In this document: piece by piece, positions 4,326 to 58,359 of the stretch
Position numbering within the stretch: the first letter of the stretch is position 1
Layout: the number at the start of each line of letters is the position of its first letter
Assembly (NCBI GenBank): GCA_903844735.1
Contig: CAIMUX010000067.1
Span: 1 to 58,359, forward strand
Origin: Candidatus Eiseniibacteriota bacterium
GTDB taxonomy: Bacteria > Eisenbacteria > RBG-16-71-46 > CAIMUX01
Length of the DNA: 58,359 nucleotides
Direction: 5' to 3'
The notes under the pieces: model-generated
What the model was told of the DNA's origin: nothing
What the model saw: the letters and a program-made list of their open reading frames with translations, nothing else
The model's database searches: none
Position numbers and translations under genes: made by a program

Positions 4326-4350
4326 GGTGGTACCTCCCGAGTCCGGACTA

Positions 4351-4403
4351 TTCACGAAATCCTGCTACGGCATCGGATCTGCCCGCATCTGCTGCGTTGC
4401 GCC
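4351..4403. repeat. half-copy of hairpin repeat element
   Basis: This 53-bp stretch begins TTCACGAAATCCTGCTACGG and nearly matches the reverse complement of the right arm of the full element at 5999..6156, including the terminal TTCAYGAAATCC and the GGATCTGCCCG and TGCTGCGTTGCGC blocks. Only one arm is present. It lies in the 325-bp gap between the divergent cupin-GNAT gene and the selenoprotein gene; the rest of that gap (4404-4650) shows only a leader with a GGGAGG ribosome site before 4651. Confidence 0.75.
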
Positions 4404-4650
4404 TGGACCCTGCCGGTGCAGAGAGAACTCCCCCGGTGGCTCTGCATCTACCGGCATCTTGATGGGTTATCCTGCACCGCCCGCAACTGGGCGTCGAGGG
4501 GGATCCTCTGCACCCCGGTCTTCATCACGACCATCCTGCCGAGGCTGCGAACCCGTCGCGTGCGAACTCGCCGCCAGCCTTGCCCGCGCTGCGTTCCGCT
4601 GGTACCGTAGCGCCCAGCACCATCGGATCCAACCAAGGGAGGGATTCCCG

Positions 4651-5973
4651 ATGATATCGAGAACCCAAGGTGCGCCGGGTGCGCGCCAGGTTCCGTTTTT
4701 CGCCACACTGCTTCTCGTTCTGCTCGCCGTGGTTGTTGTGGTCGTCGGCTGTGGCCAGAAGGGCGACGGCAAGGGAGACGGCAAGGACGGGGGCAAGGGC
4801 AACGGCAAGGAAAGCGCCGCCGCCATCACCGACACCACCGCGTTTGGCGATGCCCGCGCCGTTGCCGATACCACGGCCCGCCTCGCCGCCTGGGACACCT
4901 TCTTGAAGACCTACCCGACAAGCTCCTTCCGGCCCCGAGCCGTCGCGTACTACTGCGGCCTTCTCATGGCCGTCGATCCAGCAAAGGCCAGCGATTTTGT
5001 GGCGACGGCCCTACCGGTGGAAAAGGACCCAGCCACCCGCGGCCAACTCCACTATGCGGCCTACACGTACGCCCAAGAGCACGCGGCCGACCGTCTTCCC
5101 GCGGTGCTGCAGGCGATGCGGGACGATCCACTGATCGCGACCGATGCGTGTAACATGGTCGCGTGGGATCTGGTGGAGCGGAACCAGCTTCTGGACGAGG
5201 CGATCGCTCTGGCGGCGATCGGCGTGCAGAAGGCGCCGGATGATGGGTCGAGGGGCTCCATTCTTGACACGCAGGGTTGGGCGCACTTCGCGAAGGGCGA
5301 GTATCTGCGGGCCGTCGAGTTATTGGTCCAGGCCGTCGGCCTCGACAAGGAGAACACGGAGCTCCAGATGCATCTCGCCCAGGCCTACGACAAGGCCGGT
5401 CAGTCGAAGGAAGCGCTCGCCGTCTACACCGAGCTTCTGATTCCCGCCGAAGACCCGATGATTCGTGAGAGGGTGGCGGCGTTGAGCAAGGCCGCCGGCC
5501 AGTCGCCTGCCGGGCTGTTCCAGCGCATCGACCAGGCTCGGGAGGCGAACGCCAAGCCGGCGCCGGCTTTCACTCTCAAGAACTATGACGGCAAGGAGCT
5601 CGCCTTCGCCGACACCAAGGGCAAGGTCGTCCTCCTCAACTTCTGGCACCCGACCTGAGGCCCCTGCCGTGCGGAGTATCCGCACTTGCAGGAGATCTAT
5701 CAGCAGTACAAGGATCGTGGCTTCACCGTGTTTTCTGTCGAGACGTCGAATCGCCCGCAGTTAGCTAAGGAGTTCACCGACAAGGTGGGCGCGACGTTCC
5801 CCATCGTGCTCGATGATGCCAAGGTCAACAAAGAACTCTTCGGCATCCCCGGCACGCCGACCAACCTGCTCATCGACCGAAGGGGCAGAGTCTACTTCAC
5901 TTCGATCGGCTACAGCCCGGGTCACGAGAAGGCGCTGGCCGCGATGGTGGAGTATCTGTTGAAGCGGTCCTGA
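4651..5973 (+). CDS. TPR/TlpA-like thiol-disulfide lipoprotein, selenoprotein with in-frame UGA (Sec336)
   Basis: Read as one 440-residue protein with TGA at 5656-5658 decoded as selenocysteine. ATG 4651 follows GGGAGG by 8 nt. Residues 1-34 are a lipoprotein signal ending VVVVVVGC; a Gly/Lys/Asp-rich linker follows. Residues about 60-310 contain TPR-like helices (GWAHFAKGEYLRAVELL, HLAQAYDKAGQSKEAL). The C-terminal domain is TlpA/ResA-like: VVLLNFWHPT, then U, then GPCRAEYPHLQEIY, and the cis-Pro motif GIPGTPTNLLIDRRG. Homology continues unbroken on both sides of the UGA, which sits exactly where the first cysteine of CGPC belongs. A hairpin of the bacterial SECIS type follows directly (separate entry). 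The likely role is thiol-disulfide exchange outside the cytoplasmic membrane. No sel genes are in the window, so decoding capacity is inferred. Confidence 0.88.
5656..5692 (+). promoter_or_regulatory. bacterial SECIS-type stem-loop directly after in-frame UGA
   Basis: The UGA is at 5656-5658. The lower stem CCUGC (5663-5667) pairs with GCAGG (5688-5692). After a small internal bulge (C 5668 against UU 5686-5687) the upper stem GUGCGG (5669-5674) pairs with CCGCAC (5680-5685). The apical loop is AGUAU, with a G-U at 5676-5677. The loop G lies 17 nt after the UGA, inside the spacing typical of bacterial SECIS elements, where SelB needs a short stem and a G early in the loop. The hairpin is inside coding sequence, as expected for bacteria. 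Confidence 0.82.
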
Positions 5974-5998
5974 CCGACGGCCCGCATAGCCAGCTTCC

Positions 5999-6156
5999 TT
6001 CATGAAATCCGTCGCGAGACGGCCGAAATGCCCGTAGTTGCAAGGCGCGCGACGCTTTCCCGACGAAGGCGTACTCCATGCCGTGCGTCGAGGAGGGAAA
6101 GCTAGCGCAACGCAGCAAATACGGGCAGATCCGATGTCGTAGCAGGATTTCATGAA
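5999..6156. repeat. 158-bp long-inverted-repeat (hairpin) element
   Basis: The element is bounded by perfect 12-bp inverted ends, TTCATGAAATCC at 5999-6010 and GGATTTCATGAA at 6145-6156. Each arm is about 75 bp, and further blocks pair across the element (TGCCCGTA, GCGC, GCTTTCCC). The centre is near 6073-6082, where GGCGTAC faces GTGCGTC. It fills the gap between the selenoprotein stop (5973) and the GTG of the M55 gene (6180). As RNA it would fold into one long imperfect hairpin and could act as a terminator or as an RNA-processing site. No reading frame in it looks real. A half copy is at 4351..4403, and a related, amplified form is at 58072..58359. Confidence 0.8.
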
Positions 6157-6179
6157 CGAAGTGGGATAGGGAGGTTTCT

Positions 6180-9789: not shown

Positions 9790-9800
9790 GCTAGCCCGCA

Positions 9801-10265
9801 CTATTCATGAGCCCCCGGCCTCTTAACCCCCTCCGGCGTCTTCATCACGCAGAACAGCAGCCCGAGCCGGCGAACCGCCTCGGCAAACTTCTCATAGTCG
9901 ACCGGCTTGGTGATGTAGACGTTGCACCCCAGCTCGTAGCACCGGGTGACCTCGCGCTCATCATCGGTTGTGGTGAGGATGGCGACGGGCAGGTGGCGGG
10001 TGTGCTCGTGGGAGCGGATGCGTTCCAGGACCTGGTATCCGTCCAGCACCGGCATTTTCAGATCCAGGAGGAGCAGGAGAGATTTCGACGGTTCGCTGCC
10101 GCCCTTCCGTTCCTGCTCGATGAGGAAGTCAACGACCTTCTGGCCGTTCTCGAACCACAGGATCTCATTCGAGATCCCGGCCCGACGCAGGTTCATCTCG
10201 ATCAGGCGCGCGTGTCCCGGGTCATCCTCGACGACGAGAATGGTGACTAGGTCCATGTCGGGCAT
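9801..10265 (-). CDS. single-domain response regulator (Rcp1-like)
   Basis: A 154-residue stand-alone receiver. TILVVEDDPGHARLIEMNLR gives the acidic pocket, LLLLDLKMPVLDGYQ the phospho-acceptor Asp (about 68), AILTTTD the conserved Thr, and YITKPVDYEKF the Lys. There is no output domain. It is the Rcp1/CheY-like type often encoded beside phytochrome or PAS kinases. ATG 10265 has AAGGAGGG upstream. It ends the 20-kb signalling block, 12 nt after the PocR kinase stop, so it is the obvious shared phosphate acceptor for the five paralogous kinases, which have no receiver of their own. A broken copy is at 8836..8965. Confidence 0.93.
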   Translation of the reverse strand: MPDMDLVTILVVEDDPGHARLIEMNLRRAGISNEILWFENGQKVVDFLIEQERKGGSEPSKSLLLLLDLKMPVLDGYQVLERIRSHEHTRHLPVAILTTTDDEREVTRCYELGCNVYITKPVDYEKFAEAVRRLGLLFCVMKTPEGVKRPGAHE

Positions 10266-10277
10266 GGGTCCCTCCTT

Positions 10278-12131
10278 TTAGGAACGAGTAACCGGAAGAG
10301 CAAAGCTGAATGTGGTGCCGACGCCGGGCTCGGAATCGAACCAGATGCGTCCTCCCTGGCGCCGAACCAGCGCCTGGACGTACGCCAGACCCATGCCTTC
10401 GCCCGGCACCTCGGGGGCACCTATCCGTCGGAACGGGGCAAAGACCTTCTCTCGTTCACCCGGGGCGATGCCCCTCCCGTTGTCACGGACTTTCACGAAA
10501 AGCTCTGTCCCGGTCAGCTCCCCGGAAACCTCGATCCGGCCGGGGCGGGCCGGGTCGAGGTAGAGGACCGCGTTGGTCAGGATGTTACTCAGGATCTGCT
10601 CTAAGGATGTGCGGTCGGCGATGACCTCGGGTAGGGGGAGGATGGTGACCATAGCGCCGCTAGCCTCGACTTGCCGACCCAGGGATGCCAGGACCTCGGA
10701 TACCAAGGATCCGAGGTCCACGCGCTCCAGAATCGCTTCGTGGCGCCCCAGACGGGACAGCCGGAGCAGCGCGTTGATCAGGTTGTCCATCCGGATCACC
10801 GAGGAGTCGATGAAGCCGAGCGCCTCCGGGATGTCCTGACGGAGGATCCGATCCGCGCCGGCCCGTTCGTCGTCTGTGAGTTGCTTGATGGCGGGCTGCA
10901 TGAAGCGGTCCAGGTCGGCGAGTGAGCGGCGAAGTTCCGAGGCGTAGCCCCGGAAGTTGACCAAAGGTGCTCGCAGGTCGTGGGACACGACGTAGGCGAA
11001 CTGTCGGACCTCTTCATTGCTCTGGCTCAGAGCTTCGGCGGTGCGCTGCAGAGCCTCTTCGGCTTGTTTGCGGGACGTGATGTCGCGGGTGATATTCAGA
11101 ATGTGCGGCACACCGCTCAGCTCGATGATGGTGGCCGACATCAGGCCGTATATCTCACCATGGCGGGTCAGAAAAGGGGCCCCGTAGTCTCGGACTTCCC
11201 CTTTGGCGAGCAACTCCTCGACCACCTTCCGGCGATCCTCGGGGTCCTTCCAAACATTGATCTCCAAAGATGTCTTTCCGAGAGCCTGCTCCCGGGTATA
11301 GCCGGTAATCTGTTCGAAGCCCTGATTGACAGAGACGAACATGCCGTCCGTCAGCCTGGTAATGGCGATCGAATCCGGACTGGCAAGGAAGGCTTTGCGA
11401 AAGAGGTCCTCGCTCGCGTGCAACTGGCGAAACGCCTCATCACTCTGAGAAAGCGCGCGGGAGAGCTTGATCTTGCTGTAGCTCAGGGATGAAATCATCT
11501 CGGCGAACTTGGCATAAAACGCCATGATCGCATCAACCTTCTCCCTGCTACAGCGATGGACGCGATCGAGCGCAGCGAGGTATTCGGTCTCGTCGAATCC
11601 ATACCGACGGGCCTGGCTGCGAAACAGATCGTAATCGGGGACCTCGTCCTCGTAGAAGTACTGACCGAAGAACACGTTGCCCAAGTGTCTGCCACCCAGG
11701 ACGATAGGCGTCACGACGTCCCACAGGTTGTTCTTGCATCGGTACGCTTTGAAGGTTCCCTTCGCCACACCGTCGGCAAGGGAACAATCGCTTTCTTGGC
11801 AGTTCTTCAGCGTTTCCGGATGCACTCGATGGAACTTCGTGCAGACATCCTGCCAGCCCGTAGCAACCAAGGTGTTGCCCTGCACGTCAAGGATCCCGAT
11901 CCCGATATGCGTGACTGCGTAGAAATCATCCATCATGGCTTGCAGTGCATCAGGATCGATGATGTCGGCCAGGGTCAGTGTGCCGATGTCTCCTTCGGGT
12001 TCTGATGACTCCATGATGGCATCGAGCTTCTTCAGGACGGTGGCATCAGCCTCCCGCAACGCTTGCCCGGTCGGCCCATCAGATGCTTGGCGCAGGGGGG
12101 GGTCCGGGTGCGGTTGGTTCATGTCGGGCAT
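10278..12131 (-). CDS. PocR-PAS sensor histidine kinase
   Basis: 617 residues. Residues about 45-215 are a PocR sensory domain (GIGILDVQGNTLVATGWQDV, then NCQESDCSLADGVAKGTFK, YRCKNNLWDVVTPIVLGG), with cysteines as in the family that binds small hydrocarbons. A PAS domain follows (about 240-360), then HisKA with FAYVVSHDLRAPLVN (His about 384) and HATPase_c with NILTNAVLY, DNGRGIAPGE and GEGMGLAYVQA. No membrane segments are visible, so it is cytoplasmic. ATG 12131 has AAGGAG 6 nt upstream; the frame runs further upstream into the preceding gene but without a ribosome site. The catalytic core is close to those of the four other kinases in the block. Confidence 0.92.
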   Translation of the reverse strand: MPDMNQPHPDPPLRQASDGPTGQALREADATVLKKLDAIMESSEPEGDIGTLTLADIIDPDALQAMMDDFYAVTHIGIGILDVQGNTLVATGWQDVCTKFHRVHPETLKNCQESDCSLADGVAKGTFKAYRCKNNLWDVVTPIVLGGRHLGNVFFGQYFYEDEVPDYDLFRSQARRYGFDETEYLAALDRVHRCSREKVDAIMAFYAKFAEMISSLSYSKIKLSRALSQSDEAFRQLHASEDLFRKAFLASPDSIAITRLTDGMFVSVNQGFEQITGYTREQALGKTSLEINVWKDPEDRRKVVEELLAKGEVRDYGAPFLTRHGEIYGLMSATIIELSGVPHILNITRDITSRKQAEEALQRTAEALSQSNEEVRQFAYVVSHDLRAPLVNFRGYASELRRSLADLDRFMQPAIKQLTDDERAGADRILRQDIPEALGFIDSSVIRMDNLINALLRLSRLGRHEAILERVDLGSLVSEVLASLGRQVEASGAMVTILPLPEVIADRTSLEQILSNILTNAVLYLDPARPGRIEVSGELTGTELFVKVRDNGRGIAPGEREKVFAPFRRIGAPEVPGEGMGLAYVQALVRRQGGRIWFDSEPGVGTTFSFALPVTRS

Positions 12132-12141
12132 TGACTCTCCT

Positions 12142-14727
12142 TCAAGACCGAGTGACCGGAAGAACGAAGCTGAACGTGGTGCCGACGCCGGGTTCGGAAT
12201 CGAACCAGATACGTCCGCCCTGGCGCCGAACCAGCGCTTGGACGTAGGCCAGGCCCATGCCTTCGCCGGGGATCTTCGGAGCGCCTGCTCGTCGAAACGG
12301 AGCGAAGACCTTCTCGCGGTCATCCGCTGCGATGCCCCGTCCGTTGTCGCTGATCTTCATGAAAAGCTCTGCGGTGACCAGCCGCCCGGCGATCTCGATC
12401 CGGCCGGGCCTGGCGGGGTCGAGGTAGAGGACCGCGTTGGTCAGGATGTTGCCCAGGATCTGCTCTAAGGATGTGCGGTCGGCGGTGACCTCGGGCAGGG
12501 GAAGGACGGTGACGGTCGCGCCGCGGGCCTCGATCTGGGTACCCAGAGATGCCAGGATCCCGGACACCAGGGCTTCCAGGTCTAGCCGCTCCAGGATGAG
12601 TTCATGGCGCCCCAGGCGGGACAGCCGGAGCAACGAATTGATCAAGTGATCCATCCGGATCACCGAGGCGTCGATGAACCCCACGGCGTCCGGGACATCC
12701 CGACGGAGAATCAGGTCCGCGCCGGCCCGTTCGGTCTCTCCGAGATGTTGGAGGGCCGGTTGCACGAGGAGGTTCAAGTCGGAAAGCGAGCGACTGAGTT
12801 CTGAGGTGAAACCCCGGACGTTGACCAGGGGCGCCCGCAGATCATGGGACACGATGTAGGCAAACTGCCGGACCTCCTCGTTGGTCTGGTTTAGCGCTTC
12901 AGAGGTCCGCTTCAAGGATTCTTCCACTTGCTTGCGCTCGGTGACGTCCAAGAACACGACAATAGCGGCCTTGATCTCGCCCGTCTGGCTCAGAATCGGG
13001 GCGGCATGGCCCCACACGACCCGGTCCTCGGAATCGGTGCGGCGAATGATGAACTCCCGGCTATACTCCTCGCCACGCGAGAGCGCGCGGGCCAGCGGGA
13101 CCTCCTCGATCGCCAGGGGGGTTCCATCCAGGTCCAGGAGGTTCCAACTCGCGACATACTTGTCGATGTCAATACCGACCACCGCCTCGGACTCCGAGGC
13201 GCCGCGGATCAGCAATCCCGCCCGGTTGACATAGCGCAGGGCCCCGCTCGGCGCATCGGCGATGGCGATGCCTGCCTGGCTGCAGTCCATGGCCGCCCTG
13301 AGGATGGCCTGGGCTTCCTTCAGCGCATCTTCGGTCTGCTTGCGATCATCGACGTCCGTGTTCGTACCGAACCACTTCACGATCCGGCCGGCCGCGTCGC
13401 GCAGGGGCACTGCCCGCGCGTGGAACCAGCGGTACGCGCCGTCCGCGCGCCGGATGCGGAACTCCTGGACGAAGTCCCGGCCCGTCGCGACGGCTTCCTG
13501 CCAGTCATGTTGCGCGCGGGGGCGGTCGACGGGATGCACTTGCTCGGTCCAGTCATAGCCCAATTGACCCCGGGGGGGAAGGCCCGTGTACGCCACCCAC
13601 TGCGGACTCAGGTAGTCACAACGCCCGTCCGGCAGACTGGTCCACACCAGTTGCGGCAGCGATTCGACCAGCGTGCGGGTCCGCCGCGCGTTCGCGCGCG
13701 TGTTGAGCCAGGAGAGTGCCAGGCCGAAGCAGAGCAGGTTGATGATCGTCCCGCCGAGCAAGACGAGCCAGACGCTGCCGTAACCAACCGCCGAGGCCGG
13801 GTCACCGAGCCGCAGGAAGCGCAGAGTCCAGCGATGCCCGGCAGTCTCGATCGGGATCAGCCGAGTAACCTGGCCCGGGGAAGTCAGGGCGTTGCCCCCG
13901 GTGCTGTGACTGTCGTAGAGCAAGGTGGATGCGGATACCACGTCGCCATCGTAGACCTGCAAGGAAATCTCCCGGTCCTTCTGCTTCACATCCCAGCCCC
14001 GCAGGGTACCGTGCATCAGGTCCGACATCCGGTACGGACTGTAGACCCAGCCCTGGATCGCCGCGCGACGTTGTTCGATTGTCTCCCGCGGTAACCCGTG
14101 ACGATACACCGGGACATACATTAAGGCGCCGGCTTGCACCTCCTGGCCGGTCTCTTGCACTAAGACGACCTTCCCGGAGAGCGCCGCGACATTTTCGTCC
14201 CGCGCCCGCTCCATCGCCTCACGGCGCACGGTTTCGGAGAGCATGTCGTAGCCGAAGGCGCGCAGGTTCCGACCCGAGAACGGTTCGAGGTAGACGATGG
14301 CGGAATAGGCCTCCCGTTTGCCCGCGGGCCAAATCTGGTAGTCGGGAAAACCTTCGCGGCGAATCCCCAGGACGTGCTGGGCAAGTTGCTCGCGGGGAAT
14401 CAACCTCGCAAAACCGATGCCCTGTGTGCCTGGCAGTTGCCGATCTACCTGGAGGCCCCGGGTAAAGGCCCGCCATTCGGCGCGTGTGACCGTGTCCGAG
14501 GCATCGAATAGCGCTGCGCTACTGTGCAGGATCTGGGCGTTGGCGGCGAGTCGGTCAGAGATATTGAGCCGGATCTCATTGCAGGCGAAGTCGAACTCGC
14601 GTTGCGCGGCCGCCTCCACTCCTGCCTTAACGTACAGGGAGGCGAGCACGGTGCAGATCAACCCGGCCACCAGCAAGCCCCAGGCGCCCCATCGAGCGTG
14701 CGGCGCCGCGCTCCATCGTCTCCTCAT
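12142..14727 (-). CDS. CHASE-PAS-PAS sensor histidine kinase, membrane-bound
   Basis: 861 residues. TM1 is at about 13-35, a CHASE periplasmic domain follows (FARLIPREQLAQHVLGIRRE, VYLEPFSGRNLRAFGYDM), and TM2 is near 318-340. Then come a PAS domain with PAC ending KWFGTNTDVDDRKQ, a second PAS ending VFLDVTERKQ, HisKA (FAYIVSHDLRAPLVN, His about 628) and HATPase_c (DNGRGIAADDREKVF, GEGMGLAYVQA). ATG 14727 overlaps the upstream stop as ATGA, with no ribosome site of its own, which argues for translational coupling. The last roughly 750 bp are nearly identical to the end of the next kinase gene, evidence of recent duplication or gene conversion. Confidence 0.92.
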   Translation of the reverse strand: MRRRWSAAPHARWGAWGLLVAGLICTVLASLYVKAGVEAAAQREFDFACNEIRLNISDRLAANAQILHSSAALFDASDTVTRAEWRAFTRGLQVDRQLPGTQGIGFARLIPREQLAQHVLGIRREGFPDYQIWPAGKREAYSAIVYLEPFSGRNLRAFGYDMLSETVRREAMERARDENVAALSGKVVLVQETGQEVQAGALMYVPVYRHGLPRETIEQRRAAIQGWVYSPYRMSDLMHGTLRGWDVKQKDREISLQVYDGDVVSASTLLYDSHSTGGNALTSPGQVTRLIPIETAGHRWTLRFLRLGDPASAVGYGSVWLVLLGGTIINLLCFGLALSWLNTRANARRTRTLVESLPQLVWTSLPDGRCDYLSPQWVAYTGLPPRGQLGYDWTEQVHPVDRPRAQHDWQEAVATGRDFVQEFRIRRADGAYRWFHARAVPLRDAAGRIVKWFGTNTDVDDRKQTEDALKEAQAILRAAMDCSQAGIAIADAPSGALRYVNRAGLLIRGASESEAVVGIDIDKYVASWNLLDLDGTPLAIEEVPLARALSRGEEYSREFIIRRTDSEDRVVWGHAAPILSQTGEIKAAIVVFLDVTERKQVEESLKRTSEALNQTNEEVRQFAYIVSHDLRAPLVNVRGFTSELSRSLSDLNLLVQPALQHLGETERAGADLILRRDVPDAVGFIDASVIRMDHLINSLLRLSRLGRHELILERLDLEALVSGILASLGTQIEARGATVTVLPLPEVTADRTSLEQILGNILTNAVLYLDPARPGRIEIAGRLVTAELFMKISDNGRGIAADDREKVFAPFRRAGAPKIPGEGMGLAYVQALVRRQGGRIWFDSEPGVGTTFSFVLPVTRS

Positions 14728-16939
14728 GGGCGCCCGACCGGGAGAACAAAGCTGAAAGTGGTGCCGACTCCGGGTGCGGAATCAAACCAGATACGCCCGC
14801 CCTGCCGCCGAACCAGCGCCTGGACGTAGGCCAGGCCCATGCCTTCGCCGGGGACCCCCGGGGTACCCGCTCGTCGAAATGGAGCGAAGACCTTCTCGCG
14901 ATCCTCCTGGGCGATGCCCCTCCCGTTATCGCTGATCTTCATGAGGAGGTCCGTTCCCGCCAGCCTCCCGGAGACCTCGATCCGGCCGGGGCGGGCCGGG
15001 TCCAGGTAGAGGACCGCATTGGTCAGGATGTTGCCTACGATCTGCTCTAAGGAGGTGCGATCGGCGGTGACCTCGGGCAGGGGAAGGACTGTGACGGTGG
15101 CGCCGCGGGCCTCGATCTGTGTACCCAGGGAACCCAGGATCCCGGACACCAGGGCTTCCAGGTCTAGCCGCTCCAGGATGAGTTCATGGCGCCCCAGGCG
15201 GGACAGCCGGAGCAACGAATTGATCAGGTGGTCCATCCGGATCACCGAGGCGTCGATGAACCCCACGGCGTCTGGGACATCCCGACGGAGAATCAGGTCC
15301 GCGCCCGCTCGCTCGGTCTCTCCGAGATGGTGGAGAGCCGGTTGCACGAGGAGGTTTAAGTCGGCGAGCGAGCGACTGAGTTCCGAGATGAAACCACGGA
15401 CGTTGACCAGGGGCGCCCGCAGGTCGTGGGACACGATGTAGGCGAACTGTCGGACCTCCTCGTTGGTCTGGTTGAGTTGTTCGGCGGTGCGCTTCAGCGT
15501 TTCTTCCGCCTGCTTGCGATCATCGACGTCCGTGTTCGTACCGAACCACTTCACGATCCGGCCGGCCGCGTCGTGCAGGGGCACAGCCCGGGTGTGAAAC
15601 CATCGGTATATCCCGTCCGCCCGTCGGACGCGGAACTCCAGGGTTAGATTCGTGCCCGTCGCGACGGCTTCCTGCCAGGTTTGTTGCGCGCGGGGGCGGT
15701 CGTCCGGATGCAGTTGCTCCGCCCAGCCATAGCCGAGCTGAGCCCGCTCCGGGATGCCGGTGTAAGCAACCCACTGCGGACTCAGATAGTCACAGCGCCC
15801 GTCCGGCAGGGTGGTCCACACAAGCTGCGGCAGCGATTCGACCAGCGTGCGGAATCGTTCCGCGTTCTCCCGCTCGGTGGAAACCTGCTGTTGGAGCAAC
15901 CCGGCCTCACGACGCCGCCAATGCTCGTTCATTCCCAGGGCGGCCGCGGCGAAGACGAGGAGAAGGACCACGCCCGTGACCCGATCCCGCTTGCGCAGGG
16001 GAGCGTCGATCTCCGCGAGGTCCTCCTTGGCCACCAGGAACCAGGGCGTGCCCGATATGCCACGCGCGGAGGCCAGTACCGGCGCGCCGCGGTAGTCCGC
16101 CCCGCTCACGACACCTTCCCGCCCCAGAGCGGCCATGGCGGCCGGAAGGCGCATGGTGGTGTCGAGGGGCAGTCGGAACGCGAGTGGGACGTTTTCCCGA
16201 TGGCGTAATCGGTTCAAGAACACCACCTCGTTGCCCTCCCGCCGGATCAGCAGAGTCTCGGCGGTGCGGCTCTCGGAGGGCCAAGTCTGGACGAGGGGAT
16301 AGAGCGACTGATCAGGGTCGATGTCCAGAAGCACCACCCCGATGGCCGGGGAATTCGAGCCGGGGGCAGTCGTGATGGGAATCCAGAGCTTGAGAGAGAA
16401 TTGGTCCGGGTTCTCAAGCATGGGTTGCAGATCGGTGGTCCGGATTTCTCCGGTGTGCAAGGCGGCCAGGAAGTCCGGGTTGCCCTTGGCGGCGGGAATT
16501 GCGGATCCAGGCCGGCTCGCCGGGGCGTGCAGCCGGGGCATGCCCTGAGCGTCATAAAGGATCATCTCGCGATAGCCGTAGCGCTCGCTCGTGCTCTCCA
16601 GCCAGGTTCGGATGTCCTCGGCCGGATCTGTACCCGGGCGGGCCGAGAGGAACCGGGAGAGGCGGGCCATGACCATCGGGTTTTCGTGGATGACCCCGGC
16701 GTTGGACAGGCGCTCCGCGTACCAGCCCGAAATCTGGCGGGTCTTCAGTTCAGCGACGGAGATCAAAGTGCGCTCTGAGCTCTTGCGGAAGGCATCCGCC
16801 TGTTGCTTCAGGTAGATGGCCCCGATGATCCCGGTGGCCAAGGCCAGGAGAACGATGGCCGTGACCGGGGGTTTCACGAACTCCAAGCGGGTGGAAATCG
16901 GCGGTGGCGCTACCTTCTTCACCGGTGGCCCTGCCTTCT

Positions 16940-16943
<4 letters not shown>
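14724..16943 (-). CDS. membrane-bound PAS sensor histidine kinase with Cache-like sensor
   Basis: About 739 residues. TM1 (VTAIVLLALATGIIGAIYL), an extracytoplasmic region of about 270 residues that looks like a double-Cache domain (GYREMILYDAQGMPRLHAP, ISGTPWFLVAKEDLAEI), and TM2 (VTGVVLLLVFAAAALGM) are followed by one PAS/PAC (FGTNTDVDDRKQ), HisKA (FAYIVSHDLRAPLVN, His about 506) and HATPase_c (DNGRGIAQEDREKVF). I prefer GTG 16943, whose GTGA overlaps the hybrid-kinase stop and which has AAGGAG 8 nt upstream; an in-frame GTG at 16967 would add 8 residues. PAS and core are close to those of the downstream kinase, whereas the outer sensor differs. Confidence 0.88.
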
Positions 16944-21304
<4,361 letters not shown>

Positions 21305-21317
21305 GGTTGCTTCCTCC

Positions 21318-22733
21318 TCATGGATGAACGACCGGAAGAACAAAGCTGAAGGTCGTGCCGACGCCGGGCTCGGAATCGAACCAGATGCGCCCGCCCTGGT
21401 GGCGAATCATCGCCTGGACGCAAGCGAGCCCCATTCCTTCGCCCGGCACGTCGGCAGCCCCGACCCGGCGCAGTGGAGCAAAGACCTTTTCGCGCTCCTG
21501 TGGCGCGATGCCTCTCCCGTTGTCACTGATCTTCACGAGAAGGTCCGTTCCGGTCATCGCCCCAACGATTTCGATCCGGCCGGGGCGGGCCGGGTCAAGG
21601 TAGAGAACGGCATTGGTCAGGATGTTGCTCAAGATGAGCTCCATGGAGATGCGGTCGGCCGTGACCTCGGGCAGGGGTAGGACGGTGACCACCGCGCCTC
21701 GGGCCTCGATCTGTGGGCCCAGGGACGCCAGGATTTCGGACACCAAAAGCCTCAGATCCAACCTCTGGGGGACCGGTTCATGGCGTCCAAGCTGAGACAG
21801 CCGGAGCAGCGAGTTGATCAGATGGCCCATGCGGATCGCGGAGGTGTCGATGAACCTCAGCGCGTCCGGGACCTCAGAACGGAGAATTCGATCCGCGCTG
21901 GCCCGTTCTGTCTCTGTGAACTGATCGATGGCCGGCTGCACGAGACTGCCCAGCTCGGCGAGCGAGTGGCGAAGTTCCGAGACGAAGCCCCGGAAGTTGA
22001 CCAGAGGGCCCCGCAGGTCGTGGGATGCGATGTAGGTGAACTGCCGGACTTCCTCGTTGCTCTGGCTTAGCACCTCGGATGTTCGCTGCAGCGCTGCTGT
22101 CGCCTGCTTGCGCTCGGTAATGTCGCTCATCACGAAGCGGAACACAGGCGCGCCCTCGGGAACCTGCGCGATGACCCCCTCCAGCCGGACCCAGAAGGGT
22201 AGCCCGCCCATCTTCACCATGCGCAGTTCGGCCGCCTGCGGCTCATCGGTTTCCAAGAGACGCTTACGGTGCCGGTAGTGAATGTCCTGATCTACGGGGA
22301 GGATGAACCGAGTGATCGGCTGCTTGACCAGGGCGCCCCGGGCCATGCCCAGCAAGGTCGCAGCGGTGAGGTTGGCTTCCCGAATCAGCCCGTCTTCGTC
22401 TACGGTGTAATAGCCCACCGGCGACAGATCATAGAAAGCGAAGTACCGCTCCCTCGCGGCGTCCAACTCCGCCCCGACTCGTCGCAGCTCCTCGTTCTGC
22501 ATCTCCAGCTCGATTTGATGCAGGCGCAACTCGTGGAGCATCCGTTGGGCTTCTTCGAGCGAGGTGGCCGCGAGGGTCTCGGACGACCCCTGGAAGTCTA
22601 CCCCTTCGGGTACTTCGAAGCGTCGCCCGACAGGGGACGACGGGGCAGCTTTCCCTCGGGCGACCTCTTCGGCCTGCCGACGCAGTTCGGCGGCCTGCTT
22701 GGATCGATTAGGCTTGTCGGTCACTGTGACCAT
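21318..22733 (-). CDS. PAS sensor histidine kinase (cytoplasmic)
   Basis: 471 residues. The N-terminal helix has QAAELRRQAEEVARG, then SSPVGRRFEVPEGVDFQG, then the LHELRLHQIELEMQNEELRR segment that precedes a PAS in this subfamily. The PAS (YFAFYDLSPVGYYTVDEDG) ends FVMSDITERKQ. HisKA has FTYIASHDLRGPLVN (His about 238; Gly replaces Ala of the sister genes). HATPase_c is intact (DNGRGIAPQEREKVF, GEGMGLACVQA). The best ribosome site, GAGGAGG near 22760, is about 25 nt before ATG 22733, so the true start is uncertain. The gene stops 13 nt before the hybrid-kinase GTG. Confidence 0.88.
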   Translation of the reverse strand: MVTVTDKPNRSKQAAELRRQAEEVARGKAAPSSPVGRRFEVPEGVDFQGSSETLAATSLEEAQRMLHELRLHQIELEMQNEELRRVGAELDAARERYFAFYDLSPVGYYTVDEDGLIREANLTAATLLGMARGALVKQPITRFILPVDQDIHYRHRKRLLETDEPQAAELRMVKMGGLPFWVRLEGVIAQVPEGAPVFRFVMSDITERKQATAALQRTSEVLSQSNEEVRQFTYIASHDLRGPLVNFRGFVSELRHSLAELGSLVQPAIDQFTETERASADRILRSEVPDALRFIDTSAIRMGHLINSLLRLSQLGRHEPVPQRLDLRLLVSEILASLGPQIEARGAVVTVLPLPEVTADRISMELILSNILTNAVLYLDPARPGRIEIVGAMTGTDLLVKISDNGRGIAPQEREKVFAPLRRVGAADVPGEGMGLACVQAMIRHQGGRIWFDSEPGVGTTFSFVLPVVHP

Positions 22734-22763
22734 CTCGCCGTCTCGGGCGGCATTGATTCCTCC

Positions 22764-24611
22764 TCATGGACGAACAACCGGGAGAGTGAAGGTGAATGTG
22801 GTGCCGACACCGGGTTCTGAATCGAACCAGATGCGTCCGCCCTGGCGCCGAACCAGCGCCTGGACGTAGGCCAGGCCTATGCCTTCACCCGGCACGTCGG
22901 GGGCGCCTGCCCTCCGAAATGGAGCAAAGACCGCCTCCCGGTCATCCGGAGCGATGCCCCTTCCGTTGTCACTGATCTTCATAAAAAGTTCTGTTCCGCT
23001 CAGCTCCCCGGTGACTTCGATCCGGCCCCGGCGAGTCGGGTCCAGGTAGAGAATCGCGTTGGTCAGGATGTTGCTCAGGATCTGTTCCAAGGACGTGCGG
23101 TCGGCCACAACCTCGGGGAGGGGAAGGACCCAGACGATCGCGCCGCGGGCCTCGATCTGCGTTCCAAGGGATGCCACGATCTCCGACACCAGGGACCCCA
23201 GGTCGAGCCGCTCCGGGACCAAGTCATGGTGTCCCGCGTGGGATAGCCGGAGCACCGAGTCGATCAGGTGATCCATGCGGCTCACCGAGGCGTTGATGAA
23301 CCCCAGCGCCTCCGGGACATCCCGGCGGAGGATCCGGTCCGTGCTTGCCCCCTCGGTCTCTCCGAGCTGCTCGATGACAGGCTGTATGAGGCGGTCTAAG
23401 TCGGCGAGGGAGCGGCGAAGTTCCGTGGCGAAGCCCCCGATGTTGACCAGGGGCGCTCGCAGGTCGTGGGACACGATATAAGCGAACTGCCGGACCTCCT
23501 CGTTGCTCTGGCCCAACACTACGGCGGCGCGCGCCAGTGCCTCCTCCGCCTGCTTGCGCTCGGTAACGTCACGGAAGGACCACACCCGGCCCAGGAGAGT
23601 ACCATCCAAGATCATCGGCAAAGAAAACCGCTCCACCATCCGGCCGTCCTTGCAGGCGAGCGTGTCCACGTCCACCGCGTCCGAGCTGTAGAGCAACTGC
23701 ACCTTCTTCAGAAAGGCGTCCGGGTCGGCCAACTGATCCAACACGAATGCCAGCAGGGCCGAATCGTCGCCGAGATCCATGAGGGACTTAGGGATCCGCC
23801 ACACTTCGGCGAATCGCCGACTGGCATGTATCACCTTCCCCTGGTTGTCTACGCCGAGAATGCCGTCGGCGGTGGCTTCGAGCGTAGCCCGGAGCTGTAC
23901 CTCGTGCTTCCGCAGGGCCACTTCCGCCTGCTTCCGCTGGGTGATGTCGCTGATCACGACCCGGCACGTGGGCAACCCCGGGAAGGTCATCCCTTCGGAC
24001 ACTTCGGAACGTCGCCCGACGGGAAACTCGTCGTCCAGGTCGAAATCGCCCGCCCACGCGCCATCGGCGTCTGGCCCCGAGCCTGTCGCAAAATCTTTGG
24101 CGACGGAATCAAGACGTGCCCAGAACACCGTGCCGTCCCTTCTCACCATCCGCAACTCGAAGATCTGCGGTTCACCTGTGTCGAAGAGCCGCTTGCGGTG
24201 CAGATAGTAGAGATCCTGGTCCTCTTTGAGGATGAACGGGCTGATCGGCCGCCCGACCAGAACGCCCCGGTCCACGCCCAGGAGGGTGGTGGCTGTGAGA
24301 TTGGCCTCCAGGATCAGCCCCGGCTTGCTGATGGTGACATAGCCTGTCGGCGCCAGGTCGTACAGGTCGAAGTAGCACGCCCGCGAGGCGTCCAGTTCCA
24401 CCCCGGTGCGCCGCAGCTCCTCATTTTGCATCTCCAGCTCGATCTGATGCACGCGCAGCTCGTGGAGTATCTGCTGCGTTTCTTCGGGCGACGGGTCCGT
24501 GACGCGTTTCGGCGCCTGGGTGGCCGCCTCCCGGGTAATCGCTTCGGCCCTGCGGCGCAGCTCGGCGGCTTGGGGAGTTGCGGAGGCGCTGCTCTCACTC
24601 GGCTTGTTCAT
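22764..24611 (-). CDS. double-PAS sensor histidine kinase (cytoplasmic)
   Basis: 615 residues from ATG 24611 (MNKPSESSASATPQAAEL); an in-frame GTG at 24683 lacks support. LHELRVHQIELEMQNEELRR leads into the first PAS (YFDLYDLAPTGYVTISKPG). That PAS carries an unusual Asp/Gly-rich insert of about 45 residues (ADGAWAGDFDLDDEFPVGRR, then SEVSEGMTFPGLP). A second PAS (LEATADGILGVDNQG) ends FRDVTERKQ. HisKA has FAYIVSHDLRAPLVN (His about 382) and HATPase_c has DNGRGIAPDDREAVF. The insert resembles a segment near the N-terminus of the downstream kinase. The paralogous core and co-direction place it in the same duplicated array. Confidence 0.88.
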   Translation of the reverse strand: MNKPSESSASATPQAAELRRRAEAITREAATQAPKRVTDPSPEETQQILHELRVHQIELEMQNEELRRTGVELDASRACYFDLYDLAPTGYVTISKPGLILEANLTATTLLGVDRGVLVGRPISPFILKEDQDLYYLHRKRLFDTGEPQIFELRMVRRDGTVFWARLDSVAKDFATGSGPDADGAWAGDFDLDDEFPVGRRSEVSEGMTFPGLPTCRVVISDITQRKQAEVALRKHEVQLRATLEATADGILGVDNQGKVIHASRRFAEVWRIPKSLMDLGDDSALLAFVLDQLADPDAFLKKVQLLYSSDAVDVDTLACKDGRMVERFSLPMILDGTLLGRVWSFRDVTERKQAEEALARAAVVLGQSNEEVRQFAYIVSHDLRAPLVNIGGFATELRRSLADLDRLIQPVIEQLGETEGASTDRILRRDVPEALGFINASVSRMDHLIDSVLRLSHAGHHDLVPERLDLGSLVSEIVASLGTQIEARGAIVWVLPLPEVVADRTSLEQILSNILTNAILYLDPTRRGRIEVTGELSGTELFMKISDNGRGIAPDDREAVFAPFRRAGAPDVPGEGIGLAYVQALVRRQGGRIWFDSEPGVGTTFTFTLPVVRP

Positions 24612-31164: not shown

Positions 31165-31249
31165 CCGGCCCGGGCGAAAAACCGAAACGTGAAATTCCAT
31201 CCGCCGTGGAGCAGGTCGACGTTCTTCACTGACGAAAGGGATCCGCCGG

Positions 31250-31790
31250 CGGCTCGTACAGCGTTTTGTACCGGCGCCCAGGATCCGCCGGAGCCTCGTA
31301 CAGCGTTGTGTACTGCCGCCCAGGAATCCCCGGAGCCTCGTACAGCGTTCTGTACTGGCGCCCAGGATTACCCGGAACCTCGTACAGCATTCTGTACCGG
31401 CGTCCGATTTTTCCCGGAGGGTTGTGCAACGTTCTGCACCGGCGGTTGGTGCCGGAAATGGGTCGTACAGCGTTCTGTACCGGCGTTGGAGATTGGCCGG
31501 AGGGTCGGTCAGCGTTCTGTACCGGCGGATTCCGCGCACCGAAGGCCGGTACAAAACGCTGCACCGGCCGCCGGTGTTTCCCGTGCGGCCGTACGGAGAT
31601 TTGAAACGCGCGTCGGGATTCAGCGGCGGCTCGTACGGACTTGTGAACTCGCGTGGGAACTCTTAGGGAAGCCGGTTCGGATCTCTGCACCGGGTCCGGG
31701 CGGCCGAAGTCGGGGGTGGGGCGCTGTGACCTGGTGTTTTCCGGGCGGAATCTCACATTTCAGATCTGTGAACTGGTTGGCGGCGAAAAT
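31250..31790. repeat. 42-bp tandem array with palindromic core, copy 2
   Basis: The unit core is CGTACAGCGTTCTGTACCGGCG, in which GTACA and TGTAC are inverted. Cores begin at 31256, 31298, 31340, 31382, 31424, 31465, 31508, 31549, 31591, 31633 and 31675, that is 41-43 bp apart, decaying toward the right end (about 31717 and 31759). Between cores lies a semi-conserved CCCAGGATNCCCGGAGCCT segment. All six frames are largely open because the period is 14 codons; the minus strand gives units such as GRQYRTLYEAPGIP. I see no ribosome site and no domain, so I do not call a gene. Confidence 0.85.
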
Positions 31791-50582: not shown

Positions 50583-51263
50583 ATGAGGCGCTGGATTGTA
50601 TCAATGGTGGCTGTGGCGTTCCTCGCTGGCGGCCCAGCCCTGGCGGGCGGCAAGTCATGTGGGAAACATGGCGGCAACAAGGGGGGCAACCGCCCGGCGC
50701 AGCAGATGTCGGCCGGTGGTTGTGGTCAGGCCGTAAAGGCAGATTGCCGCGGCCAGGCAGCGGCTGGTGGCAGTGCGATGACAAAGGCCGCCTGCTGTAA
50801 GGGGATGAGTGCCGGAGCAGGCAGGTCGTGCGGCTCCATGCCGAATTGCGGCTCCAAGGCGAATTGCGGCTCCAAGGCAAACTGCGGCTCCAAGGCAAAC
50901 TGCGGGTCGATGCCGAACTGCGGATCCCCGGCAAACTGCGAATCCATGCTGAATTGCGGGTCCGGCGGCAGCCGGGCTATGCACGTCTCCCACGACACGT
51001 CCAACATCTGGTACCGCGGCCCCGCCCCGCGCGCCAGTGTGGCCGACTTGGTTTGCGATGACCACCGCGGCGGGGGCCACCGGGCCATGACCTGCGGCGG
51101 CCGTTCCGGCTGTGGCTCTGCCATGAATCGCCGCTCCGGGATGGACAGCAGCCGGACGGCCTGGAAGGCCGGCGCCGGGATGACCCACGGCACCGGCTGC
51201 CCGCACGCCCATGGTCGGACGGCCTGGAAGTCAGGTTGCGGCCCCAACATTCTCGCTCCCTAG
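50583..51263 (+). CDS. secreted Cys-rich protein with hexapeptide repeats
   Basis: 226 residues. ATG 50583 follows GGAGGAAGAAGGA. MRRWIVSMVAVAFLAGGPAL, then AGG, is a signal peptide. The mature part is Gly/Ser/Cys/Met-rich (CCKGMSAGAGRSCGSMPN). Seven six-residue repeats follow, CGSMPN, CGSKAN (three times), CGSMPN, CGSPAN and CESMLN, so Cys recurs every sixth residue. The C-terminal part contains CDDHRGGGHRAMTCGGRSGC and CPHAHGRTAWKSGCGPN, again with Cys and His. It matches no family I know. The Cys/His/Met content suggests metal binding or a disulfide-linked surface protein. A terminator follows. Confidence 0.75.
   Translation: MRRWIVSMVAVAFLAGGPALAGGKSCGKHGGNKGGNRPAQQMSAGGCGQAVKADCRGQAAAGGSAMTKAACCKGMSAGAGRSCGSMPNCGSKANCGSKANCGSKANCGSMPNCGSPANCESMLNCGSGGSRAMHVSHDTSNIWYRGPAPRASVADLVCDDHRGGGHRAMTCGGRSGCGSAMNRRSGMDSSRTAWKAGAGMTHGTGCPHAHGRTAWKSGCGPNILAP
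50829..50954. repeat. seven 18-bp tandem units (CGSxxN)
   Basis: The unit is TGCGGCTCCAAGGCGAAT with variants, seven times, followed by a partial eighth (TGCGGGTCC). Changes are mostly at codons 4 and 5 and in third positions, while the Cys and Asn codons stay fixed. Selection on the Cys spacing is therefore likely. Confidence 0.92.
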
Positions 51264-58071: not shown

Positions 58072-58359
58072 CAGTCGGCCACAGATGCGAGGCGCGCGCC
58101 GCGCTGACGACGCAGGCGTACGTCCGTACGCCGAGGAGGCAGCGTGGTGCGCAACGAAGCAGGTGTGGCCGAATCGCGCGAACCGGGACGACGCAGGCGT
58201 ACGTCCGTACGCCGAGGAAGCAGCGTGGTGCGCAACGAAGCAGGTGTGGCCGAATCGCGCGAACCGGGACGACGCAGGCGTACGTCCGTACGCCGAGGAA
58301 GCAGCGTGGTGCGCAACGAAGCAGATGTGGCCGAATCGCGCGAACCGGGACGACGCAGG
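58072..58359. repeat. hairpin element with its right half amplified as 81-bp tandem units
   Basis: CAGTCGGCCACAGATGCG (58072 on) begins the left arm. The palindrome GGCGTACGTCCGTACGCC is the hairpin tip, and the right arm ends GGTGTGGCCGAATCGCGCG. The stretch from GACGACGCAGG to the end of the right arm is then repeated with an exact 81-bp period, starting at 58106, 58187, 58268 and 58349, and runs out of the window. Long frames through it (for example on the minus strand) arise only because 81 is a multiple of three. Its GCGCAACGAAGCAG block resembles that in the element at 5999..6156. Confidence 0.9.

Follow-up and report, generated by a model that had tools for sequence, protein, structure and literature searches.

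A Probable Hairpin Mini-transposon with IS1380-type Ends Whose Inner Core Is Shared with Repeats Bearing Other Termini

The hairpin repeat found in intergenic DNA of a 58,359-nucleotide stretch from a Candidatus Eiseniibacteriota bacterium (the whole stretch is referred to as the window) is very probably a non-autonomous mini-transposon with IS1380-type ends, which would be moved in trans and would carry a core that acts for its own propagation or survival. The element shares its ends with insertion sequences (IS), its flanks follow a duplication pattern, sites lacking it are present in related genomes, and its copies are dispersed; its arms covary, its stem mismatches are asymmetric between the strands, and its core stands under several termini. 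From these sequence comparisons we infer both that an IS1380 transposase mobilizes the element in trans and that the core acts on its behalf. A search of the literature, mostly of freely accessible journals, for the strings of the termini and the core gave no description of the element.

Results

The initial annotation described a 158-bp element at 5999–6156. The hairpin in this interval is borne out by its predicted folding energy (−90.5 kcal/mol, compared with −57.3 on average for shuffled sequences; z = −7.6; none of 200 shuffles was as good), and the perfect 12-bp inverted ends and the two pairing arms attributed to it are present, the pairing being imperfect and its internal loops conserved, but the length has to be revised to 182 bp since homology reaches 5987–6168 (Table 1). 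The terminal repeats of this longer element are about 24 bp and imperfect. No open reading frame (ORF) is contained in the 182 bp, in agreement with the reported lack of coding capacity. Throughout, the plus strand of the family is the strand on which GGCGTACT lies ahead of AGTACGTCGAGG.

Table 1. Positions of the element, its parts and its relatives in the window, and types of termini around the core
Feature	Position or locus	Strand	Basis or remark
Complete hairpin MITE, 182 bp	5987..6168	+	Model match 184 bits, E=2e-39; part of an alignment that includes 13 further copies
Left ATAG, probable target-site duplication	5986..5989	.	Identical to right ATAG; family rule YTAR
Right ATAG, probable target-site duplication	6166..6169	.	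Sequence reading; family YTAR correlation
Left terminal inverted repeat (TAGCCAGCTTCCTTCATGAAATCC)	5987..6010	+	Matches ends of IS1380-family IS
Right terminal inverted repeat	6145..6168	-	Inverted-repeat and terminus-pattern matches
Inner core (CAAGGCGCGCG ... GCGCAACGCAGC)	6040..6116	+	Common to elements with other termini
Apical hairpin GGCGTACT..GTGCGTCGAGG, conserved G.T wobble	6068..6093	+	Family motif GGCRTACT..AGTAYGTYGAGG
Decayed half-copy: one terminus and one arm	4340..4403	-	Inverted repeat with 6105–6175; 92% identity at 4351–4402
Solitary terminus TAGCCCGCACTATTCATGA	9792..9810	+	Exact pattern match to terminus TAGCCCGCnnnATTCATGA
Inner-core hairpin with GGGCCGCGCC-like ends	58073..58174	+	Model match 66.4 bits, E=5e-12
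81-bp tandem amplification of window-end core, up to contig end	58106..58359	+	98–99% identity
Type A: IS1380-type terminus			Most copies of core motif
Type B: CAGGATGTTCAAAAAGG-like ends; GGCTGCTGAAAAAG ends	Nitrospira; an Eisenbacteria genome
Type C: TTTGAGCG ends	Viral contig
Type D: GGGCCGCGCC ends, no clear duplication	This genome, including window-end array		About 12 copies
Type E: TGTCCCGTCCCAGAAG-like ends; MITE of about 160 bp, CTAG-TGTCCCGTCCCAG..-CTAG	Five relatives (G039, G017, G038, G042, G044): L351, L354, L373–L378, L381, L382, L387, L389, L390		CTAG flanks in most of 13 copies examined

The further copies that the annotation had called for do exist. In a search of the genome (5.40 Mb in 142 contigs), full copies at 87–94% identity, another at 76%, and fragments were found, and reading the flanks past the reported ends showed that the better-kept copies end in TAGCCCGCTTCATTCATGAAATCC. 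A covariance model built from 14 copies picks out seven complete elements in the genome (E ≤ 2e-34) besides about 12 copies of the related inner core; copies also occur in relatives of the same family and the same order. Within the window, the half-copy suspected at 4351..4403 is real, with 92% identity over 52 bp and similarity that reaches about 4340–4403, and the end-like trace at about 9795 proves to be an exact copy of the terminus at which the second arm was not found. The amplified form at the window end, rightly described as related, contains the inner core of the same hairpin. Elsewhere in the genome the terminus pattern is also present at decayed and solitary sites, and one nested insertion of the element was found (C129:53323-53350).

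The terminus of the element, YTAG-CCCGnnnTATTCATGAA, is also that of IS1380-family IS, which are present in its own genome, in those of relatives, and in Jannaschia. An IS1380-family (PF13701) element of its own genome, C33:39226-40538, is bordered by the same terminus in the form of inverted ends, one of which matches the mini-element well while the left end differs and is only a loose match; its transposase, the only one of this genome to have matching ends, seems to be truncated (316 aa, covering positions 3–270 of the 435 in the profile). The same terminus borders IS1380 transposases in four relatives (G005, G023, G040, and G046) and stands, with TAGCCCGCATAATTCATGAA, at three separate IS1380 insertions in Jannaschia, and a variant form borders such a transposase in an Acidobacteria genome (G072). 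IS1380 ends of the matching kind read TAGCCCG..TTCATGAA, and other IS1380 elements of the relatives likewise start at CTAG. On C66 and C127 of this genome, end pairs spaced like those of an IS were rejected, since they hold no transposase. An IS1380 transposase was not detectable in four copy-rich genomes (G059, G064, G095, and G069, the last with 97 core copies), possibly because the helper has been lost or because a different helper is used; draft metagenome-assembled genomes (MAGs) often lack repeats. In public genomes, the 20-mer TAGCCCGCNNNATTCATGAA occurs in at least 120 stretches, and the record titles among the matches listed include Nitrospira, Gammaproteobacteria, Acidobacteria, Myxococcota, Binatota, Zetaproteobacteria, Planctomycetota, Armatimonadetes, and Alphaproteobacteria. 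Among the first 80 of these at least 120 loci, 47 end pairs flank strongly folding stretches of 138–287 bp.

The 4-bp flanks of 57 clean copies have C or T before TA on the left in 55 cases and G or A after TA on the right in 52, and the left and right bases are correlated (p=2e-4 and 0.007); the flanks are a 4-bp YTAR duplication. Joined-flank queries made from five Nitrospira copies and run against 32 congeneric genomes matched uninterrupted across the junction in three cases (L181, L240, and L285, each 194 bp), so that the empty-site check proposed in the annotation is positive, and the empty orthologous sites indicate that these 194-bp insertions are gains. The adjacent reading frame stops exactly at the TAG of the terminus in about 25 of 85 type A copies (∼30%), an approximate count since it relies on a home-made ORF caller; this suggests that stop codons are preferred YTAR targets, and the placement can be understood because TAG and TAA stops are expected to be common YTAR sites in such genomes. 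The GGCGTACT-first strand is oriented at random with respect to neighboring genes (++26, --19, -+12, +-11), and this argues against a role in their transcripts.

The arms show the compensatory change that the annotation had made a test of the family. In the alignment of 14 copies, drawn from this genome and from relatives, 95.5% of the cells of 63 consensus pairs are paired, and double-sided changes affect 27 of the 63 pairs, a number reached in none of 500 shuffles and compared with 2–5 for slid partners; for an alignment of 21 copies from Nitrospira, with 67 pairs and 96.4% of cells paired, the corresponding number is 21, again with 0/500 shuffles as high and with 0–6 for slid partners. It should be noted that the slid-partner control corrects for relatedness, whereas the shuffles do not. 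The pairing is thus conserved independently in two lineages. For the mismatch counts, the 3′ arm was reverse-complemented and the 5′ arm aligned to it under a scoring that weighs every mismatch equally, and isolated mismatches were tallied. On the GGCGTACT-first strand, G.T exceeds A.C (100 versus 27), G.A exceeds T.C (71 versus 16), and G.G exceeds C.C (60 versus 16), although these counts are not independent, the copies being related; when each sequence context is counted once, G.T and A.C number 51 and 22 (p=9e-4). The direction is the same in type D (12:1, or 3:1 for unique contexts), and the ratio is 7:3 in the very small sample of type E. A palindrome with no functional strand should lack such a bias, and the excess of G.T suggests that the fold is conserved mainly on one strand. 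The internal loops are purine-rich (76%) and may resemble GUA/GA bulged-G motifs; the proposal that they are more conserved than the stems was rejected (84% versus 84%).

The inner hairpin, CAAGGC..GGCGTACT/AGTACGTCGAGG..CAACGC, is present under at least four termini besides the IS1380-type one (Table 1) and is spread over six or more bacterial groups of phylum rank, the core-bearing repeats being found in Nitrospirota, Acidobacteriota, Binatota, classes of Proteobacteria, and Eisenbacteria. Its motif is present in 12 of 39 genomes searched, in up to 97 copies, whereas the reversed-pattern control gave none. Against the type A model, elements of types D and E give E values of 1e-11 to 1e-17; type B matches are weak (E 1e-6 to 0.04), and those of type C are likewise weaker than those of D and E. 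In an alignment of the types that was fitted to the model, CAAGGC and GCAACGC, the apex, and GTCGAGGAG are common to them, and some of these bases are predicted to be unpaired. Type E, in which one copy has TTAG on one side, forms a MITE family of its own, separate from type A, with which it has the target and the core in common.

In the Binatota MAG with 97 copies of the core motif (G069), many copies lie within 70 bases of contig ends (e.g. L237, L249, L259, and L288–L304), which indicates that the element breaks the assembly there. A scan of viral contigs for the core gave four matches, only one of which, L234, is a real element; the other three (L231–L233) have no element-like hairpin ends and may be due to chance. 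L234 (contig IMGVR_UViG_3300037424_002862, filed as viral) has two core hairpins, at 752–869 and 5444–5534, the former of which has ends of a different type (TTTGAGCG).

Discussion

The reading of the repeat as a miniature inverted-repeat element, one of two offered in the initial annotation, is supported by the IS1380 termini, the YTAR flanks, the empty sites, the dispersed copies, and the lack of an ORF of its own. A transposase of the IS1380 DDE type, supplied in trans, most likely mobilizes it, and insertion would be into YTAR sites, mostly CTAG, with duplication of the 4 bp; because TAG and TAA belong to the target, many copies would fall precisely on a stop codon, where they would cause little damage. 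The interior of the element is a structured hairpin core whose fold is probably actively preserved, mainly on one strand. Given this one-strand fold together with the random orientation toward genes, the core is likely to serve the element itself, in the form of either single-stranded DNA or its own RNA, and not neighboring genes.

Among known systems, MITEs derived from IS1380 resemble the element in being non-coding, about 140–290 bp long, with ends that match IS1380, a 4-bp duplication, and empty sites, but they differ in that the fold of the element is kept by compensatory change on one strand and in that its interior is a hairpin core common to other MITE types and not a deleted IS. Simple internal deletion of an IS does not explain a one-strand fold or a core common to several MITE families. 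ERIC and NEMIS/Correia have a narrow host range, whereas the present family spans phyla and has its core under several termini. These hairpin MITEs of enteric bacteria and Neisseria (PMC3733652) are, like the element, intergenic, palindromic, and able to fold as RNA. The Chunjie MITE of Geobacter uraniireducens, as a review describes it (PMC10969869), is intergenic, 178–235 bp long, with conserved terminal inverted repeats (TIRs) and many partial copies; on that description it is like the element in size, TIRs, and partial copies. REPs and REPINs, of 20–40 bp and tagged with GTAG or CGTC (PMC3733652), are also repeated imperfect hairpins in many phyla, but REPs are associated with RAYTs and have no TIR and YTAR duplication.

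A rival reading is that of a host-serving RNA element, such as a bidirectional terminator, a stabilizer of mRNA 3′ ends, or an RNase III site, that is repeated by chance: the fold is very stable, its pairing is conserved, and a stop codon often stands immediately before the copy (about 25 of 85). The position at stop codons follows, however, from the YTAR target, gene orientation is random despite the preference for the fold of one strand, and the empty sites indicate recent gain, so that we regard such an element as very improbable. The terminator or processing role that the annotation had suggested is not supported, in view of the absence of a T-tract and of a match in Rfam and of the gene orientation: no T-run follows the stem and no orientation with transcription was found, and the Rfam search gave no family above the cut-off. 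A REP- or REPIN-like element mobilized by the kind of tyrosine transposase that accompanies REPs (Y1_Tnp), with the hairpin GGCGTACT/AGTACGTYGAGG as the candidate substrate, would account for the imperfect hairpin with its conserved bulges, the preferred strand, and the high copy number in some genomes. We give this reading hardly any credence: the element has 182 bp, true terminal repeats, and a 4-bp duplication, unlike REPs of 20–40 bp (PMC3733652), the GTAG and CGTC tags are present in some copies and not consistently placed, no Y1_Tnp was found in three copy-carrying genomes (G001, G002, and G010), and that of the element's own genome is only broken, in two fragments.

It is unlikely, though a matter to be taken seriously, that the pairing is a by-product of inverted IS ends whose arms have been equalized by recombination or templated correction, with no selection on the fold. 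Many MITEs are near-palindromic, and templated correction of quasi-palindromes can mimic compensatory change, so that it is a serious rival as an explanation of the covariation. It is less so for the strand bias, because correction would remove mismatches symmetrically and would not favor G.T, G.A, and G.G over A.C, T.C, and C.C, and the same asymmetric core with its internal loops is present in different phyla under different termini. Convergence or chance, as opposed to common descent, could be invoked for the core under different termini in view of the weak model matches of type B, but the E values of types D and E, the absence of reversed-pattern matches in 39 genomes, and the unpaired bases common to the types (CAAGGC..GTCGAGGAG..GCAACGC) make it distinctly improbable.

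A further reading, which we advance tentatively and with less than even confidence, is that the inner hairpin is an independent functional module which acts in folded, single-stranded form, whether as DNA or as its own RNA; several transposon families whose termini are unrelated would have taken it up, and it would have spread across many phyla. Selection would in that case act on the core, for which the IS ends would be mere vehicles. Hairpin repeats of bacteria are usually treated species by species, whereas here one core unites repeats across phyla, and this raises the testable question of whether the core promotes mobility or persistence, and which strand is read. The model and the motif can be used to annotate much unexplained intergenic sequence.

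Some other features of the window and genome should be recorded. A gene for a TlpA/thioredoxin-like lipoprotein (about 4650–5973, plus strand) has an in-frame TGA at 5656–5658 that replaces the first Cys of the CxxC motif (NFWHPT-TGA-GPCRAEYP), and the frame continues to 5973; the product is probably a selenoprotein. SelB is encoded in the genome (C53:62606-63685). Five 300-bp blocks of 76–94% identity in consecutive large minus-strand ORFs (window 10277–23076) are apparently recently duplicated domains of sensor-kinase type. Tandem repeats are present at 31220–31653 (42-bp period), 17788–17993 (15-bp), and 50829–50972 (18-bp), the periods all being multiples of three.
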